NCBI GenBank assembly: GCA_945882215.1
Contig: CAMCWM010000003.1
Span: forward strand, 1-64,000
DNA from: Akkermansia muciniphila
GTDB taxonomy: Bacteria; Verrucomicrobiota; Verrucomicrobiia; Verrucomicrobiales; Verrucomicrobiaceae
Reading direction: 5' to 3'
DNA length: 64,000 nucleotides
Each line of letters begins with the position of its first letter. Within the stretch, counting starts at the first letter, position 1. Under the pieces are notes generated by a model that was not told where the DNA came from, did no database searches, and saw only the letters and a program-made list of their open reading frames with translations. Shown here one piece after another: positions 50,360-58,445 of this stretch. Made by a program: the position numbers and the translations under genes.

Positions 50360-50453
50360 AATGACGAATGCAGAATGCAGAATGCCGAATTTCTGAGGCA
50401 GGCATCTTCACGCCGTCATTCATTCGTCATTCGCCATTCGTCATTCGTCATTC
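50360..50453. repeat. GAATGACGAA-family inverted repeat inside the manganese operon
   Basis: A left arm of AATGACGAATGC-type units (50360-50392) and a right arm of ATTCGTCATTCG-type units (50415-50453) are inverted and imperfect. It occupies almost the whole gap between the ATPase and first permease genes. The permease Shine-Dalgarno site begins two bases after it. The same family occurs at 14980-15109 and 56368-56400. Confidence 0.75.
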
Positions 50454-50454
50454 C

Positions 50455-50461
50455 AAGGAGG
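50455..50461 (+). promoter_or_regulatory. Strong ribosome binding site for the first permease
   Basis: AAGGAGG lies 5 bases before ATG 50467. Such a clear Shine-Dalgarno site is rare in this window and fixes the start. It directly follows the repeat element, so the permease may need independent initiation after the interruption. Confidence 0.75.
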
Positions 50462-50466
50462 TTCGC

Positions 50467-51318
50467 ATGTCCAGCCTCCTGACACCCTTTGAATACGAAT
50501 ACATGCTCAAGGCCATCGTCGTGAGCGGCCTCATCGGCGGCGTATGCGCGTTTTTGTCGTGTTTCATCACGCTGAAAGGCTGGTCGCTGATGGGCGATGC
50601 ACTGTCTCATGCGGTGGTGCCCGGTGTGTCGCTGGCGTGGTTGCTGGGTCTGCCGTTTTCCGTCGGAGCCTTCGTCGCGGGCATTTTGGCGGCGCTGAGC
50701 ATGGGCTGGGTGAAGAACCATTCACGTCTGCGCGAAGACGCGGTGATCGGCGTGGTCTTCACCAGTTTCTTCGCCCTCGGCCTTCTCCTGCTCTCGCTGT
50801 TTCCGAGCAATCTCAACCTGCGCACCATCATCTTTGGCAACATCCTTGCCATCTCGGACCCCGACATCCTCCAGGTGCTCATCATCTCCGCGCTGTCCAT
50901 CCTCGTGCTCAGCCTGAAGTGGCGTGACCTGCTGCTCTACTGCTTCGATGAAAGCCACGCGCGCAGCCTCGGCCTGAACACGCGTTTCCTGCACTTCCTG
51001 CTGCTCGCGTTGCTCTCCGCCACAGCCGTCGCGGCCTTGCAGACGGTGGGCGCATGCCTTGTCGTGGCGATGCTCGTCACGCCGGGTGCCACGGCGTATC
51101 TGCTGACGGATCGCTTTGGCAAAATGCTCGTCATCGCCACCGTCACCGGTGTGGTGTGTGGTGTGGTGGGCGCGTATGTCAGCTACTTCCTGAACGGCTC
51201 CACCGGCGGCTGCATCGTGGTTTTACAAACACTCGTCTTCCTCGTCGCTCTCGTGCTCGCACCGAAGCACGGCCTCCTCGCCGCACGCACTCAGCGTCGC
51301 GCCGCCGCCATGTCATGA
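50467..51318 (+). CDS. mntC: Metal ABC transporter permease 1 (ABC-3 family)
   Basis: A 283-residue membrane protein of the ABC-3 family with about eight membrane segments. Family stretches are FLSCFITLKGWSLMGDALSHAVVPGV, LREDAVIGVVFTSFFALGLLL, LYCFDESHARSLGLNTRF and TVGACLVVAMLVTPGATAYLLTDRFGKM. The start at 50467 is set by the AAGGAGG site; the upstream extension is repeat DNA. Its stop overlaps the start of the second permease (ATGA). Two different permeases suggest a heterodimeric channel, as in the MntABCD systems of Bacillus. Confidence 0.94.
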   Translation: MSSLLTPFEYEYMLKAIVVSGLIGGVCAFLSCFITLKGWSLMGDALSHAVVPGVSLAWLLGLPFSVGAFVAGILAALSMGWVKNHSRLREDAVIGVVFTSFFALGLLLLSLFPSNLNLRTIIFGNILAISDPDILQVLIISALSILVLSLKWRDLLLYCFDESHARSLGLNTRFLHFLLLALLSATAVAALQTVGACLVVAMLVTPGATAYLLTDRFGKMLVIATVTGVVCGVVGAYVSYFLNGSTGGCIVVLQTLVFLVALVLAPKHGLLAARTQRRAAAMS

Positions 51319-52148
51319 ACCTTCTCACCCCCTTTCAATACGGCTTCATGCAGGAAGCGCTGCTCGTCGGCGCTCTCGTCGGGGCTGTGTGCGCGGTGCT
51401 CTCCTGCTATCTCGTTTTGAAGGGCTGGTCGCTCATGGGCGATGCCATCTCCCATGCCGTGCTACCCGGTGTGGTCGGTGCTTACATGCTCGGTCTGCCA
51501 CTGGCCGTGGGTGCGTTTGCTTCCGGACTGTTTTGCGCCACGGCCACGGGCTGGATCAAATCCAACACGCGCATCAAAGAAGACACGGTCATGGGCATCG
51601 TCTTCACCGGACTGTTCGCCTTTGGACTCGTGCTCTTCACCAAAGTGGAGACCGAGGCGCATCTTAACCACATCCTGTTCGGCAACATCCTCGGTATCGA
51701 GCGTGCTGACATGATCCAGACCATCACGGCCTCAGTGCTGACTCTGGTGGTCATCCTGTTCATGCGCAAAGACCTGCTGCTGTTCTGCTTCGACGCCGCG
51801 CATGCCCGCGCCATCGGCCTGAACACCAACCTGCTCTACTACGTGCTCCTGGGCCTGCTGGCGGCCACTATCGTTGCCTCGCTCCAGGCCGTCGGCATCA
51901 TCCTGGTCGTGGCCATGCTCATCACCCCCGGCTGCACCGCTCGATTGCTCACGGATCGCTTCGACCACATGCTGCTCATCGCCGCCGGCTCCTCCGTGCT
52001 GGCAAGCTGCCTCGGTGTTTACGTCAGCTTCTTCATCAACGGCGCCACCGGCGCCTGCATCGTCCTCGCGCAAGCCTCATTGTTCGCCCTCGCCTTTGTC
52101 TTCGGCCCCAAGCACGGCCTGATCGCAGCCCGCAGACGGGTGGCCTGA
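51315..52148 (+). CDS. mntD: Metal ABC transporter permease 2 (ABC-3 family)
   Basis: A 277-residue paralogue of the preceding permease, with VLSCYLVLKGWSLMGDAISHAVLPGV, IKEDTVMGIVFTGLFAFGLVL, LFCFDAAHARAIGLNTNL and AVGIILVVAMLITPGCTARLLTDRFDHM. It starts inside the stop of permease 1 at 51315. Its last 17 codons and stop (52095-52148) recur at 56277-56330, beyond the next gene. It is the last gene of the manganese import operon. Confidence 0.94.
   Translation: MNLLTPFQYGFMQEALLVGALVGAVCAVLSCYLVLKGWSLMGDAISHAVLPGVVGAYMLGLPLAVGAFASGLFCATATGWIKSNTRIKEDTVMGIVFTGLFAFGLVLFTKVETEAHLNHILFGNILGIERADMIQTITASVLTLVVILFMRKDLLLFCFDAAHARAIGLNTNLLYYVLLGLLAATIVASLQAVGIILVVAMLITPGCTARLLTDRFDHMLLIAAGSSVLASCLGVYVSFFINGATGACIVLAQASLFALAFVFGPKHGLIAARRRVA
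52095..52148 (+). repeat. Proximal copy of a 54-bp direct repeat (3' end of permease 2)
   Basis: The last 54 bases of the mntD-like gene including its stop match 56277-56330 at 48 of 54 positions. The segment between the copies contains only the 1345-residue protein gene and short flanks. Confidence 0.88.
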
Positions 52149-52217
52149 GGACTTCGGCCGTCTTTGCCGCCTTTTCGATTGCCAGAAACACGCGCCGTGC
52201 CCTAAAAGCATGCGCGT

Positions 52218-55200
52218 ATGATTTTTCACACACTCGCGGACGCCAGTTCGGACGCCTACCGGTCAGGACAAGTCGTTGGAATTTTCATCATCGTGCTTCC
52301 CACGCTGATTGGCATCGTCAAATGCCTCAGCCTGCTCAAGCGCCCGACCACCAGCAAACTCTGCGTCATCGCGCTGACGCTCATGCTGACCGGCTGGCTC
52401 ACTGCGGCCCTCGGCCAAGGTGTGGGCATTTTTGTACCTGCCTTGGCGGTAGTCGCGCAAACCATCGCAGGACTCATTGCGATGGTCTTGTTTCTCGCTG
52501 CCTTCGTGCTCGCGATTGTCGGCCTGGCCTGCTATGACCGCACCCGTCTCACACAAGGGCGTGCCCAGGCCGTCTGGACGCTGGTCATCGGCGGCATTTT
52601 TCTGGTGATTGCCGTTGCTGGAGCCGTGATGGCAGTCCGCACGCAGATTCTTGCTGAGGAACTCGCGGCCCAGAATTCACCGGACAAAACCGTCGCCAGC
52701 GAGGAGTTCAACTGCTCGCTGACCTGCCCGCCTCGCTGGGTGAAGATGAACGCCACCTCGCTCAACAAGCTCGCCTGCATCGCCTTCCGTCGTTCCGCGC
52801 CCGAGGGCTACGCCATGGTGCTCGGCGAGCATCTGGACTCAGACATTGCCATCGAGGATCTGATGGACGCTGTGAAGGCGAACCTCGCCGCCGCCGCAAC
52901 CAGCGTTGAGGATGACAAGACGGAAAAGCTCACCCTCAACGGGATCGACTTCATGCGTCGCACATGCATCGTGCGCACGGCGGAATCGCTGGGCATTCCG
53001 ATGTATTTTGATCAATGGGTCACGACACGCCCTGGCTTTTCCTGGCAGATCACCTGCTGGGGACCGTCCGCCGGCCGGGAACGGCTCGCGCCGGAGTTCC
53101 GCACGTTGATGGAATCGTTCAAGGTGCTCGACGAAAAACGCATCGGTTCGCCCAGTGCGGTCATTGCGAATGTGACGCGGCCCGCCTGGGGTTACCGCAC
53201 GCAGCTTCCAGTCAACGACTGGAAACAATGGCCCGCCCACGGGCAGGCGCTCGCCGATTTCGCCGCGTTGCGCCCGTTGGAGGCACTGCTGGTCATTCCC
53301 GTCGATCTTGGCGAGCAAGCCCCGGACCTCGACTCTGTCGCCACCGCTTTGCTGGATCGCCTGGACATTCCCTATCCTTCTGATGAAGGCTGGGTCGCCA
53401 AACCCTGGCCTTGCGCCTGGGGTGACGGGTTGGAAATCACAGGCAGCCGAACCGTTGACGATGCCGAGTACGACTATGTCCTGCGTGTGGCCGTGAAAGA
53501 TCGTTTGGCCCACCTGCACGCCGGCTGGGCGACAAAAAAGAAAGGCGATCTCGCCAGCGTCCGGGCTGCGCTTGATGCCATCGAGCTGCTGCCGCCCCAG
53601 GGCCAGCCGCCCGCGCTACAGTCATCCCAGCGGCAGGATGCTGGACTCTTCTTCAATGACCTCGGTATCGCTCTCTACCAGCGTGACCAGTTCAAGGAAG
53701 CCGTGTCGTGGTTCAAACGCGGCTTTGAGCAGACCTCCAAGGACGCCGCCATTCTCGGCAACGTCGCCGACGCCATGGAGCAGGCCGGGCAGTTCAAGGA
53801 GGCGCTGCAATTTCTCACACCGCACCTGCCGGCCTTTCCCAAGAGTCCCACCCTGCACCTGCGCCACGCTTACATTCTCTCAGGCAACAACGACGACGAT
53901 GCCGCCAACACCGCCTTCCAGCAGCCCGTCAGCACCGGTCTCAAAGATGAAAACAAAGCCCTCGAATGGCTCCAGCACCTCAATACGAAGGAAAAGTACC
54001 AGCTTGCGATGCTGGCCGCAGAAGCGTGGATGAAAAAGTCTCCCAGCGTTACCTCCCGCCGCTGGCATGCACAAACCGTCGTCTCCGCTGGTGATGAAAA
54101 ACGCGGCATCCAGTTGTTCGAAGAACTCGCCGCTGAATTCCCCGACGACCGCCGCGTCAGCTACGACCTCGGCGAAGCGCTCAACGACGCCGACGAGCAT
54201 GCGCGTGCCGCCGCCGTGGCTGAAAAACTCCTCGCAGATGGCAAAGAGGCGCCACGCGCCCTCATGATCCTCGGCTGGAGCCAGATGGGGCGGAAATGGT
54301 ACCGCGAAGCCAAGCTCACCTTTGAAAAAGTCGCCAAGAAAGACCCCGACAACGAAACCGTGCAGGACGCCGTGCGCCGCGCCTCCGCCATGCTCGGCCA
54401 AGGCAACAACTCTGACATCAAAACGCCCGTCGAAGCCGTCTCCCTGCCCGCTGCCGTCCAGCAGGCGCTCACGGCGCATCCCGCCGCCAAAGATTACGGC
54501 AAAGACCAGCCCTATGCATGGTTGCTCACCGCCAAGGGCTATCACTTCGATCCCGCCAAACCCATGCGCCGCACCTGGCACCGCAAGGCGCGCATCTACA
54601 CCACCGAAGGCGCCAATGACCTCAGCAGCATCGAGTTTACCTTTGACCCTCTGAGCGAGCGCATCTTCATCAACCGCGTCGAGGTGCGCGATGAGAACGG
54701 CAAAATCATCGGTTCCGCGCCCGGTGACGCCTATGTGATGGACATCAACAATGGCAGCGCCTCTCACCGCAAGAAGCTCCATTTCCAGATTCCCGGCCTG
54801 CGCCCCGGCTGCACCGTCGAATATCAGGTGAGCATTGAGGATTTCGGCAAAACCGAGGAGTTCACCTTTGAACGAAAGCTCTTTGGCGACAGCGCGGCGG
54901 ACATCGTCTTCGTCACAGGTGACATCGACAAAGTACAAACCGCCAGCGCACGAACCGCAACGCTGCAAACCGTGCGGGAGAAAAACCTGCTCGCCTGGAT
55001 GGGCTTCAACCTGCCCTTCGACCCCGACGAACCTATGAGCGGATTCTATGAAGACCGCGTTCCCGGGGTGTGCCTCGGCGGCATGGAGGGCACCTGGGCT
55101 GAGATCGGCGAAAAGTTTCTCAAAGACCTTCAGGAACGCTTCCAGCCGGAGTCCCAAGTCACCGCGCTCGCCACGCAGCTCACCAGCGGCATGAAAACGC

Positions 55201-56255
55201 CGCGCGAAAAAATCGCCGTCCTAGCTGGCCATGTGCAGAAAGAGATCAGCTACACCGCCATCGAGTTCGGCACTCGCGCGCGCCGTCCAAACCCCGCCGC
55301 CCAGACGCTTCAGCAGCAGTATGGCGACTGTAAAGACCAGGCGCTGCTCCTGCATCAGCTTCTCACTGCCGCAGGCGTCGAAAGCCATCTCGCCCTGGTG
55401 AACACCAACTGGCGCACCCAGCCCGCGCTGCCCACACTCGACCAGTTCAACCACATGGTGGTGCATGTCCCCTCCCTCGGTTCCGGATGGTTGATCGACA
55501 CCACCAACAAAAACCTCCCCTCTGACGCCTGGCATGCCGACGACCTGTGGCATTCGCACGCCCTGATCCTGCAGCCCGGCAAGGTGCGTCTCGACGCGCC
55601 GCAGGCAGAACCTGCGGCGGACAGTTGCCGTGTGGCCTGCCGCCGCATCATCCGCCCGGAAGGTGATGCGTGGCATGTCGAAGAAACGCTCACCCTGCAC
55701 GGCTACTACGCTGCCGGGATGCGCAGCGCCTTCACCGGCCTGGATGCCGCCGCGCAGTTGCGCAAGGCACAGAGCATTCTCGAAAAAAATGCGCGCGTGC
55801 AGGTGCACAGCTTCACCTTCGACACTCTCGCCAGCAATGCCGACCCAGCCCGCCTTACAATCACCTACGATGTGCCAGGCCGCTTGCATGATGAAGGGGG
55901 TCTTCACCGGGCCGTACTGCCCGCCCTATGGGAAAACGACTATCTCGTCACCACTTTCGTCAAAGCACGCCAGACGCCTTTCCTTGTGCGTTATCCATTC
56001 CGCTTTCGCTCGGAAGTCATTGTTGAAAACATCCAGGGCATCACCCCCGCCTCCGCACAAGCCCTGAACCAGTCTGCCGCCGGCTCTCACACACGATGGC
56101 AGCTCAGCACCGCCGCTGACAGCAAAACCACCACCATCCGTTTTGAGTTTGATTCCACTCCCGGCGCGCATCCCCCTGCCAGCTACCAAAAATGGCATAA
56201 CGAATGGAATGCCGCCCTCAAGGCGTGGGATCGACCACTGGTCTGGAAACCGTAG
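52218..56255 (+). CDS. Large membrane protein with TPR, DUF3857 and transglutaminase-like domains
   Basis: A 1345-residue protein. Four membrane segments lie in the first 145 residues (IFIIVLPTLIGIVKCLSLL, LCVIALTLMLTGWLTAA, the IAGLIAMVLFLAAFVLAIVG region, VIGGIFLVIAVAGAVMAV). A soluble domain follows (about 160-300), then TPR-type helices (about 470-740, e.g. AAILGNVADAMEQAGQFKEAL). DUF3857 spans about 770-930 and a transglutaminase-like domain about 990-1130, with nucleophile Cys1038 in YGDCKDQALLL, His in FNHMVVHVP and Asp in WLIDTTN. Such proteins are common in Bacteroidetes and Verrucomicrobia, with unknown substrates. The gene is bracketed by a duplicated 3' end of the preceding permease gene, suggesting it was inserted. 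Confidence 0.88.
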   Translation: MIFHTLADASSDAYRSGQVVGIFIIVLPTLIGIVKCLSLLKRPTTSKLCVIALTLMLTGWLTAALGQGVGIFVPALAVVAQTIAGLIAMVLFLAAFVLAIVGLACYDRTRLTQGRAQAVWTLVIGGIFLVIAVAGAVMAVRTQILAEELAAQNSPDKTVASEEFNCSLTCPPRWVKMNATSLNKLACIAFRRSAPEGYAMVLGEHLDSDIAIEDLMDAVKANLAAAATSVEDDKTEKLTLNGIDFMRRTCIVRTAESLGIPMYFDQWVTTRPGFSWQITCWGPSAGRERLAPEFRTLMESFKVLDEKRIGSPSAVIANVTRPAWGYRTQLPVNDWKQWPAHGQALADFAALRPLEALLVIPVDLGEQAPDLDSVATALLDRLDIPYPSDEGWVAKPWPCAWGDGLEITGSRTVDDAEYDYVLRVAVKDRLAHLHAGWATKKKGDLASVRAALDAIELLPPQGQPPALQSSQRQDAGLFFNDLGIALYQRDQFKEAVSWFKRGFEQTSKDAAILGNVADAMEQAGQFKEALQFLTPHLPAFPKSPTLHLRHAYILSGNNDDDAANTAFQQPVSTGLKDENKALEWLQHLNTKEKYQLAMLAAEAWMKKSPSVTSRRWHAQTVVSAGDEKRGIQLFEELAAEFPDDRRVSYDLGEALNDADEHARAAAVAEKLLADGKEAPRALMILGWSQMGRKWYREAKLTFEKVAKKDPDNETVQDAVRRASAMLGQGNNSDIKTPVEAVSLPAAVQQALTAHPAAKDYGKDQPYAWLLTAKGYHFDPAKPMRRTWHRKARIYTTEGANDLSSIEFTFDPLSERIFINRVEVRDENGKIIGSAPGDAYVMDINNGSASHRKKLHFQIPGLRPGCTVEYQVSIEDFGKTEEFTFERKLFGDSAADIVFVTGDIDKVQTASARTATLQTVREKNLLAWMGFNLPFDPDEPMSGFYEDRVPGVCLGGMEGTWAEIGEKFLKDLQERFQPESQVTALATQLTSGMKTPREKIAVLAGHVQKEISYTAIEFGTRARRPNPAAQTLQQQYGDCKDQALLLHQLLTAAGVESHLALVNTNWRTQPALPTLDQFNHMVVHVPSLGSGWLIDTTNKNLPSDAWHADDLWHSHALILQPGKVRLDAPQAEPAADSCRVACRRIIRPEGDAWHVEETLTLHGYYAAGMRSAFTGLDAAAQLRKAQSILEKNARVQVHSFTFDTLASNADPARLTITYDVPGRLHDEGGLHRAVLPALWENDYLVTTFVKARQTPFLVRYPFRFRSEVIVENIQGITPASAQALNQSAAGSHTRWQLSTAADSKTTTIRFEFDSTPGAHPPASYQKWHNEWNAALKAWDRPLVWKP

Positions 56256-56276
56256 GCTCGTGCATGCACGCAGGCA

Positions 56277-56330
56277 TTTATCCTTGGCCCCAAGCACGGG
56301 CTGATTGCAGCCCGCAGACGGGTGGCTTGA
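56277..56330 (+). pseudogene. Distal copy of the permease 2 3' end (remnant)
   Basis: In one frame it reads AFILGPKHGLIAARRRVA and stop; the intact gene ends AFVFGPKHGLIAARRRVA. Six of 54 bases differ. It starts 21 bp after the stop of the large transglutaminase-like gene. It cannot be a functional gene. It looks like a leftover of a second copy of the permease gene end. Confidence 0.85.
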
Positions 56331-56367
56331 ACCGTGACGCGGGAAAAGGACTGGAAGCCCGCCTCTC

Positions 56368-56400
56368 ATTCGGCATTCGACATTCCGCATTCGTCATTCA
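56368..56400. repeat. Half element of the GAATGACGAA family
   Basis: Four CATTCG/CATTCC-type units in a row match the right arm of the elements at 15084-15109 and 50415-50453. No inverted left arm is visible nearby. It lies 37 bp after the distal copy of the permease gene end and just before trpS. Confidence 0.65.
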
Positions 56401-56436
56401 AACTCCGCCTCCATCTTCAAGCCTCTTCCCCCGACC

Positions 56437-57402
56437 ATGCGCATCCTTTCCGGCCTCCAACCCAGCGGCAGACTTCACATCGGCAATTACTTCGGCATGA
56501 TGAAGCCTGCGCTCAAGCTGCAGCATGAAGGCGACGCCTACTACTTCATCGCCGACTACCATTCTCTCACCTCGGTTCACGATGGCAAGGCGCTGCGCGA
56601 ATACGTCCGCGAACTCGCGGTCGATTTCCTTGCCTGCGGCCTCGATCCGACGAAATGCGTCTTCTTCCGCCAGAGCGACGTGCCGGAGCACTGCGAACTG
56701 GCCTGGATCCTCAGCACCGTCACCCCGATGAGCCTGCTGGAGCGCTGCCACAGCTACAAGGACAAGATCGCCCGCGGCCTGCATGCCTCTCATGGCCTCT
56801 TCGCCTATCCCGTGCTCATGGCGGCGGATATTTTGATGTACGACAGCGATGTCGTCCCCGTGGGCAAGGATCAGAAACAGCACGTCGAGGTCACCCGCGA
56901 CATCGCCATCAAGATGAACGAGACCTTTGGCGAAGGCCTCTTCAAACTGCCGCAACCGCGCATCCAGGAGGCCACCGCCGTCGTCCCTGGCCTCGACGGT
57001 CAGAAGATGAGCAAGAGCTACGACAACACCATCCCGCTGTTTGAAGAGCCGGGCCCGCTCAAAAAGAAAATCATGGGCATCAAGACCGACTCCACGCCCG
57101 TCGAAGCGCCGAAACCTGTCGAAGGCAGCAGCATTCTCGCTCTTTATAAACTCGTCGCCTCCGAGGCCGATTACGACACCATGGTGAACGACCACCTCAA
57201 CGGCGGTGTCGGCTACGGCGACTTCAAAAAGCGCCTCCTGCAAGGCGTCACCGACTACTTCGCCCCCTACCGCGCCCGCCGCGACGAAATCCTCGCCGAC
57301 CAAGGCTATGTGGACAAGGTCCTCGCCGAAGGAGCCGAGAAAGCTCGCGCCGTCGCCCGCAAGACGCTCAGCCGTGTGCGTGATGCGGTGGGCCTGGGTT
57401 AA
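56437..57402 (+). CDS. trpS: Tryptophanyl-tRNA synthetase
   Basis: A 321-residue class I aminoacyl-tRNA synthetase that charges tRNA-Trp. The HIGH-type signature is HIGNYFG at 14-20, the KMSKS loop is GQKMSKSYDNT, and the tryptophan-site region ILMYDSDVVPVGKDQKQHVE is conserved. The length is normal for the compact bacterial form. Its last 101 coding bases recur almost exactly at 58345-58445, beyond the alginate lyase-like gene. Confidence 0.97.
   Translation: MRILSGLQPSGRLHIGNYFGMMKPALKLQHEGDAYYFIADYHSLTSVHDGKALREYVRELAVDFLACGLDPTKCVFFRQSDVPEHCELAWILSTVTPMSLLERCHSYKDKIARGLHASHGLFAYPVLMAADILMYDSDVVPVGKDQKQHVEVTRDIAIKMNETFGEGLFKLPQPRIQEATAVVPGLDGQKMSKSYDNTIPLFEEPGPLKKKIMGIKTDSTPVEAPKPVEGSSILALYKLVASEADYDTMVNDHLNGGVGYGDFKKRLLQGVTDYFAPYRARRDEILADQGYVDKVLAEGAEKARAVARKTLSRVRDAVGLG
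57300..57400 (+). repeat. Proximal copy of a 101-bp direct repeat (3' end of trpS)
   Basis: It matches 58345-58445 at 98 of 101 positions. The copies diverge right after the last Gly codon except for the stop (TAA here, TGA in the copy). The enclosed segment holds one gene on the opposite strand. Confidence 0.95.
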
Positions 57403-57432: not shown

Positions 57433-58293
57433 TCACTCCACCGAAAGCATGGAGTAGCGCACTTCGCCCACCGGCGTTGCCACAGGGCCGGGATCGAACA
57501 TGTAGCAGCCAGCTTTGAAGTAGCAGGTTTCTGCCTCCCAGGCTGCATCAAGAGCCTGTCCCTTCTGCGAACTGTCAGCCAGCACACTCCAGGTTTTGGT
57601 GCCGGTCTTGCGCACCTTCACCGTCAGCACATGAGTGCTGCTCAACATGATTTCATAGTCCATCGCCTTGTTCAGTATGATGGACTCACGCTGGCGGTCC
57701 GGCGTGTGAATGATTTCGGAAGACTTTTTCGGCTCCGTGCGATACTCCGCCAGCAGCTTCCACGGGCGGGCATTGTAATCGCACATCAGCTTCAGCAGCG
57801 GCCCGTTATCGCTGATGTCGTCGTGAATCTGCGCCAGGGTGATCTCGCCTTTCTCCGTGATCTTGGGCACCGAGGTCAGGGCAAAGGTGCCCCGCAGCGT
57901 GTGGTTGCCACCGCCGACCTTCCAACGCTCCGTCTTTTTCTGGCTAAGTTCTGTGCGGGGAAAATGCGAGTTCGGCGTCACGGCTCCGTTCGGCGGGACG
58001 GCGAAAATCAACTGCGTGGAACCAAGCGCCCAAAAGAAACTGCCGTAGCCGGGATCAGCGGCAAAACCCTTCGTCGGATCGGAGGCCAGCGTGGTGATCT
58101 TGATCACCCCGGAAGCATCCGCGACCGGAATCTCCAGATCGAAATGTGTCAGCACTGTCGCAAAGCCGGGAACGCTGCCAGGCGGCTTCTTGTCCATCAT
58201 AGGATCAGCCGCCGAAGAGACGACACCACATGAACAAACTGCGATGGCGACCGTGACAATACTGTGAACCGTTCGGTGGCTGGTTTTATTCAT
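57433..58293 (-). CDS. Alginate lyase-like polysaccharide lyase (PL7 family)
   Basis: A 286-residue exported protein (hydrophobic N-terminus with VAIAVCSCGVVSSAAD). The PL7 (alginate lyase 2) signature motifs are present: Arg113 in RTELS, QIH at 155-157, and Tyr258/Tyr264 in YFKAGCYMF. The beta-jellyroll spacing and total length fit the family. PL7 enzymes cleave alginate or related uronans by beta-elimination using the His and Tyr seen here. The position normally Gln after the last Tyr is Met-Phe, so specificity may differ. It points opposite to its neighbours and is enclosed by a 101-bp direct repeat of the trpS 3' end, which suggests acquisition as a single gene. Confidence 0.82.
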   Translation of the reverse strand: MNKTSHRTVHSIVTVAIAVCSCGVVSSAADPMMDKKPPGSVPGFATVLTHFDLEIPVADASGVIKITTLASDPTKGFAADPGYGSFFWALGSTQLIFAVPPNGAVTPNSHFPRTELSQKKTERWKVGGGNHTLRGTFALTSVPKITEKGEITLAQIHDDISDNGPLLKLMCDYNARPWKLLAEYRTEPKKSSEIIHTPDRQRESIILNKAMDYEIMLSSTHVLTVKVRKTGTKTWSVLADSSQKGQALDAAWEAETCYFKAGCYMFDPGPVATPVGEVRYSMLSVE

Positions 58294-58344: not shown

Positions 58345-58445
58345 CCAAGGCTACATGGACAAAGTCCTCGCCGAAGGAGCCGAGAAAGCTCGCGCCGTCG
58401 CCCGCAAGACGCTCAGCCGTGTGCGTGATGCGGTGGGCCTGGGTT
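58345..58445 (+). pseudogene. Distal copy of the trpS 3' end (remnant)
   Basis: The 101 bases encode YMDKVLAEGAEKARAV and so on to the C-terminal GLG, then a TGA stop. Only three bases differ from trpS itself. There is no upstream catalytic part. The copy ends two bases before the REP element. Confidence 0.95.

Follow-up and report, generated by a model that had tools for sequence, protein, structure and literature searches.

Elements that integrate site-specifically into the 3' ends of genes, such as SCCmec and the tRNA islands, restore the end of the gene that they enter and leave the old end at their far side. Homology-facilitated illegitimate recombination (HFIR) is known from S. pneumoniae, A. 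baylyi and P. stutzeri, where it generally deletes about 1 kb of resident DNA. Typical HFIR products lack resident DNA and are mostly joined at microhomologies of 3-10 bp (PMC3240628). In an E. coli assay that selected for one-sided homology, 56 of 60 recombinants yielded the product that marks the homologous gene as partially duplicated; in the 14 clones sequenced, the duplication measured 109-950 bp. This outcome was put down to molecules that had been shortened and recircularised before a single crossover (PMC3240628). For the Rhs/T6SS effector loci, displacement of resident 3' regions by newcomers has been proposed, with HFIR invoked there too (PMC5361080). Finally, long and variable target duplications involving restriction-modification genes of Helicobacter pylori are attributed to Nobusato et al. 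(2000) in the summary given in PMC3031569.

The locus described here lies in the window, by which we mean the whole 64,000-nucleotide stretch that was analysed. Its genome is designated G000, and the comparison set comprised 48 genomes of the genus, with Prosthecobacter MAGs among those members that have names. A 1345-codon gene has been inserted behind mntD, and the 3' end of mntD stands on both sides of it (Table 1). The initial annotation had given an identity of 48/54 for the two copies (52095-52148 and 56277-56330), which is exact, and the repeat extends to 50/57 positions (88%), with TGA closing both copies. As had also been claimed, GPKHGLIAARRRVA is read in both copies of the window, but the distal copy of the sister genome G008 contains an in-frame TGA, so that the frame is not conserved for function.

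Table 1. Features of the mntD and trpS loci in the window (G000), and further host genes in the sister genome G008.
Feature	Position	Strand	Remarks
mntD, metal ABC-transporter permease (ABC-3), host gene of the insertion	51054..52148	+	PF00950, E 8.9e-89
Proximal copy, 57-nt mntD 3' end, functional, closes at the stop codon	52092..52148	+	50/57 to distal copy
Inserted segment, left flank, begins right after the mntD stop	52149..52217	+	common to G008, unlike any empty site
Inserted gene, 1345-aa transglutaminase-like protein	52218..56255	+	93% identical in G008
Inserted segment, right flank, to the scar junction	56256..56273	+	partly common to G008
Distal copy, displaced original mntD 3' end (scar)	56274..56330	+	in-frame TGA in G008
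Resident DNA from the original mntD stop to trpS, with CATTCGNCATTC repeat at ~56365-56400	56331..56436	+	93/108 to G058, z 17
trpS, downstream anchor and host of a second, separate insertion	56437..57402	+	PF00579; 47/48 genomes
Proximal trpS 3' end, 101 nt, 97%	57300..57400	+	stop TAA created at the junction
Inserted alginate-lyase-like gene	57433..58293	-	PF08787, E 3.3e-28
Displaced trpS 3' end	58345..58445	+	GGGTTGA end as in most relatives
Host gene, Gfo/Idh/MocA oxidoreductase	G008 C14:228234-229313
Host gene, 1445-aa DUF7133 protein	G008 C8:169162-173499
Host gene, pectate-lyase-like	G008 C23:356865-358469

The inserted gene encodes a protein with N-terminal hydrophobic segments, TPR repeats, a DUF3857 domain and a transglutaminase core, with the motifs of the Cys/His/Asp triad at 1036 (GDCKD), 1077 (FNHMVV) and 1092 (LIDTT). 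Comparison of G000 with G008 gives a dN/dS of 0.14, demonstrating purifying selection. Any match to this gene at 1e-20 was found in only 8 of the 48 genomes, and searches returned no plasmid or phage match.

Empty sites were found among the relatives. trpS has a match in 47 of the 48 genomes and mntD a close match in 31. The prediction that mntD would directly precede the repeat element and trpS in some relatives is borne out: G058 has mntD with a single 3' end, 107 bases with a CATTCG repeat and then trpS, while in G001, G040 and G045 mntD ends 34 bases before trpS, so that in all of these genomes the flanking genes are adjacent with no insert between them. The corresponding order in G000 and G008 is mntD, the 1345-codon gene, the 57-base copy, the matching 106 bases with the repeat, and trpS, and the gene behind mntD together with a distal copy was found only in these two. 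The outcome that the initial annotation had named as refuting its view, namely the gene between mntD and trpS in all relatives and no distal copy, did not occur. The same comparison bears on the possibility of an assembly artefact or chimeric contig. The window's genome is a fragmented assembly of 391 contigs, but the separate assembly of G008 (about 30 contigs) has the same junctions in diverged sequence, which refutes an artefact for the mntD case and leaves it a negligible probability.

The site upstream of trpS varies further in the genus. Many genomes without a linked mntD have, immediately 5' of trpS, a gene ending in HKATVPLF.VPPKR, which probably encodes a universal-stress-type protein. 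In G039 and G052 the end of mntD is altered, and behind it come a short stub from the end of the stress-type gene, a further gene, a version of the 1345-codon gene that is about 68% identical across the aligned part, the repeat and trpS. In both of these loci (L085 and L086), the changed mntD C-terminus runs into the remains of an apparent outer-membrane-protein gene, followed by the 3'-end stub of the stress-type gene, a second and different rearrangement at the same spot. Where repeat and insert are missing, the 34-38 bases before trpS are conserved (TTGACGA...CCGCCATATCAGCGG; L070 in G045, L082 in G001 and L084 in G040), and TTGACG, which resembles the -35 box of a promoter, overlaps the stop codon of mntD or of the stress-type gene. 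This stretch is replaced in G000, G008 and G058 by the sequence with the CATTCG repeat (window 56331-56436). Repeats of the CATTCGNCATTC type occur in both orientations in the window, in the mntB-mntC gap (50360-50455) and before trpS (56365-56400), and similar ones precede trpS in G039, G052, G058 and G011.

The flanks of the two copies identify the resident one. The 106 bases 3' of the distal copy match those 3' of the only mntD of G058 in 93 of 108 columns (z 17), and the portion before the repeat element matches on its own (36/44, z 9.2). By contrast, the downstream flank of the proximal copy has no match to the resident downstream sequence (z 0.9). Since the distal copy is joined to G058-like resident DNA, it is the displaced resident end, and what is new is the proximal copy, which arrived together with the 1345-codon gene. 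The suggestion that the distal end came from a donor's homologue therefore has to be reversed. The short repeat that had been reported after the distal copy is indeed present, but it is a feature of the resident site that already stands in the insertion-free G058. The right part of the distal copy of G000 shares AGACGGGTGG with the proximal copy (RRVA variants), which occurs in no other recovered mntD end and suggests gene conversion between the two copies of G000 after its split from G008. A tree of the 57-base copies was left out of the evidence, given too few sites and the gene conversion in G000.

The pair of mntD ends could also be what is left of a tandem duplicate, if mntD had been doubled (or a third permease had been present) and the new gene had replaced all but its last 57 bases. 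mntC and mntD are themselves tandem paralogues with ends that are about 70% similar. The scar, however, has 88% identity to mntD and continues into the DNA found behind the single-copy mntD of G058; no similarity to mntD upstream of the repeat is left in the right flank of the insert (56256-56273), and no relative was seen with a second mntD at the site. We regard such a remnant as distinctly unlikely.

That the event is old, one of the options offered by the initial annotation, is borne out by G008, as a structure common to both genomes must predate their split or have passed between them. Between G000 and G008, dS is 0.225 (0.196-0.262) for the 1345-codon gene, 0.27-0.29 for mntC and mntD, and 0.40-0.43 for znuA, mntB and trpS. 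mntC+mntD reject a grouping of G000, G008 and G045 (p-AU 6e-6) that is allowed by znuA+mntB and that falls within a starred gyrB clade. mntC+mntD have thus recombined relative to znuA+mntB and gyrB, either in G045 or in the ancestor of G000 and G008, and the locus is a mosaic of homologous exchanges with a break near the mntB/mntC boundary. By rpoB and the mnt genes, G000 lies nearer to G008, but its trpS is closest to that of G045 (dS 0.26), another sign of exchange at the locus.

trpS itself carries the second case in the window, with the same geometry as the first: an alginate-lyase-like gene, for which the trpS loci of the other genomes retrieved gave no counterpart, lies between a proximal and a displaced trpS 3' end. 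The distal copy of this case precedes a different, hairpin-like sequence, so that the initial annotation was mistaken in having the short repeat follow "again". Internal trpS fragments outside called genes were observed 5' of an intact trpS in L261 (4358-4545 and 7468-7655; 188 nt, 82%) and likewise in L294 (6486-6570 and 8075-8159; 85 nt, 86%).

A scan of 2.06 Mb of the genus, made up of the window, 1.6 Mb from G008 and 0.4 Mb from G023, was partial and had few cases; it gave 56 direct-repeat pairs of 40-300 nt outside single genes. The class was defined by the stop codon: one copy had to end no more than 5 nt from a stop, and the other had to lie downstream in non-coding sequence. Seven pairs belonged to it, compared to 0.028 expected under random placement, which agrees with the earlier view that two such structures in the window are not due to chance. 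The seventh candidate (G008 C8:263335/256837) looks like a dispersed GTAGCTTCGATTG palindrome and was dropped, leaving six counted cases: mntD in G000 and in G008, which are one event, trpS in G000, and three other genes of G008. The window thus holds two cases and the 1.6 Mb of G008 four, while there was none in the 0.4 Mb of G023. A further 1.1 Mb of trpS loci, most of them outside the genus, also gave none; these loci are short, and their genes were called more crudely. In the main scan, no pair had the mirror arrangement at start codons, which are called less surely than stops.

The three additional host genes of G008 show the same signature. The oxidoreductase and DUF7133 genes are present in 16-17 of 18 genomes. 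A search of 17 relatives showed the first gene inserted behind the oxidoreductase (VOC family) to be confined to G008; the same holds for the gene inserted behind the DUF7133 protein, except for a 31% match in G001. The pectate-lyase-like gene has an orthologue in G011 with the same stop and other genes next to it; the insert is absent there, yet there is no matching empty site. Upstream of each scar, no similarity to the host gene is left (z 2.2 or less). Taken together, the partial scan suggests that the genus repeatedly gains single genes by insertions that displace the tail of a resident gene.

In all six counted cases, the repeats have downstream ends within 5 bases of the stop and arbitrary upstream ends, which is what one would predict if homology did not reach beyond the coding sequence. 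Elsewhere in the same list, repeats overshoot the stop by 19 and 32 bases, and one ends 19 bases short of it. One of these pairs, on contig C14 of G008 (L153-L172; 119991-120076 and 127828-127913), consists of 86 bp at 98% identity, covering a gene 3' end and 19 bases past the stop; it encloses 7.8 kb of DNA a short way 5' of the znu/mnt operon in G008 and looks like a younger insertion.

These repeat ends also bear on a long target duplication, in which a gene is inserted at one point and 57 bases of the target (101 for trpS) are copied to both sides. Such an event would produce the same geometry, with an empty site in relatives, direct target repeats and no integrase in the window inserts; at mntD, 57 nt at 88% surround the insert and are single copy in G058, and the 86-bp pair described above is nearly identical and runs beyond the stop. 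On the other hand, the six counted duplications close at the stop instead of at scattered positions farther on, where coding pressure would have tolerated any longer copy. This coincidence fits homology better, but the cases were selected by the stop, and other pairs overshoot it. We consider a long target duplication possible but unlikely. The pattern would also arise from a directed process in the genus, i.e., an enzyme or uptake pathway that adds single genes right behind the stop codons of resident genes, exchanges the gene end on each occasion and uses gene tails as general docking sites, an idea to which we attach little credence.

Site-specific integration into gene 3' ends, as for SCCmec and the tRNA islands, shares the topology seen here, with the functional end proximal and the displaced end distal. 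However, the inserts behind mntD and trpS consist of one gene each, with no integrase or recombinase, and the target ends (mntD, trpS, oxidoreductase and pectate-lyase-like) share no visible sequence when compared by eye. Together with the lack of plasmid or phage matches for the 1345-codon gene, this makes an integrating element very improbable.

We favour one-sided homologous insertion, in which incoming DNA shared only the end of the host gene and was joined illegitimately at its other end (probability roughly 0.6). On the incoming DNA, the 1345-codon gene would have stood behind the tail of an mntD homologue. Homologous recombination within the shared mntD end would have given the resident mntD the incoming tail with the new gene behind it, which is the arrangement seen by synteny, and the non-homologous end would have been joined illegitimately just 5' of the resident tail. 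That tail stayed behind with its own downstream DNA, as the 57-base scar now observed there. No clear microhomology is legible at the illegitimate junction, given the strong divergence. As intergenic DNA diverges fast, homology would stop at the stop codon, and the duplication would end there. Afterwards, the scar would have decayed, as in G008, or swapped bases with the live copy, as in G000; recombination between the two direct repeats could in principle excise the gene precisely. In the likeliest form of this one-sided insertion, a fragment that had recircularised with no more than a short piece of mntD entered the chromosome by a single crossover; a linear event, i.e., HFIR, is a close alternative. 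We prefer the single crossover because the partial-duplication product in E. coli has the same geometry, which falls short of proof. The 57 bases are a short homology for a crossover, and this counts against the preferred mechanism. Neither a donor nor an excised form came to light, and a literature search for this group found no paper on natural transformation, nor any experiment.

Gene gain in bacteria is mostly known only as presence or absence, whereas the present locus still has the junction in place. Its displaced end shows the recipient's side, its intact end probably that of the donor, and homology reaches as far as the stop codon. Should the rest of the genus follow this pattern, one-sided insertions of single ordinary genes into an environmental lineage, with no mobile element involved, could be counted from such scars, and the share of gene gain that works by this route would become directly testable.

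Compared with the systems introduced above, the long target duplications, as summarised for H. pylori, likewise show direct target repeats of tens to hundreds of bases that are seen when related genomes are compared; they concern restriction-modification genes, whereas the repeats counted here end at stop codons. At the Rhs/T6SS loci, a displaced resident 3' part also persists downstream as an orphan, but these are effector and immunity modules, while here ordinary genes stand behind ordinary genes and a non-coding stub is left. HFIR likewise gains unrelated DNA through one homologous and one illegitimate end; it deletes resident DNA, mostly at microhomology, whereas at mntD both the resident end and its downstream DNA have been kept. 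The single crossover in E. coli also joins foreign DNA via one-sided homology and duplicates a piece of the homologous gene on the far side, and at mntD a partial duplication of the homologous segment indeed lies beside the insert, with no deletion. That assay used a laboratory plasmid, while the present insertions are natural and old, involve 57-101 bases and leave the host gene intact. The kind of insertion is already known; what is new is its recurrence behind ordinary genes, without an integrase in the two inserts of the window.
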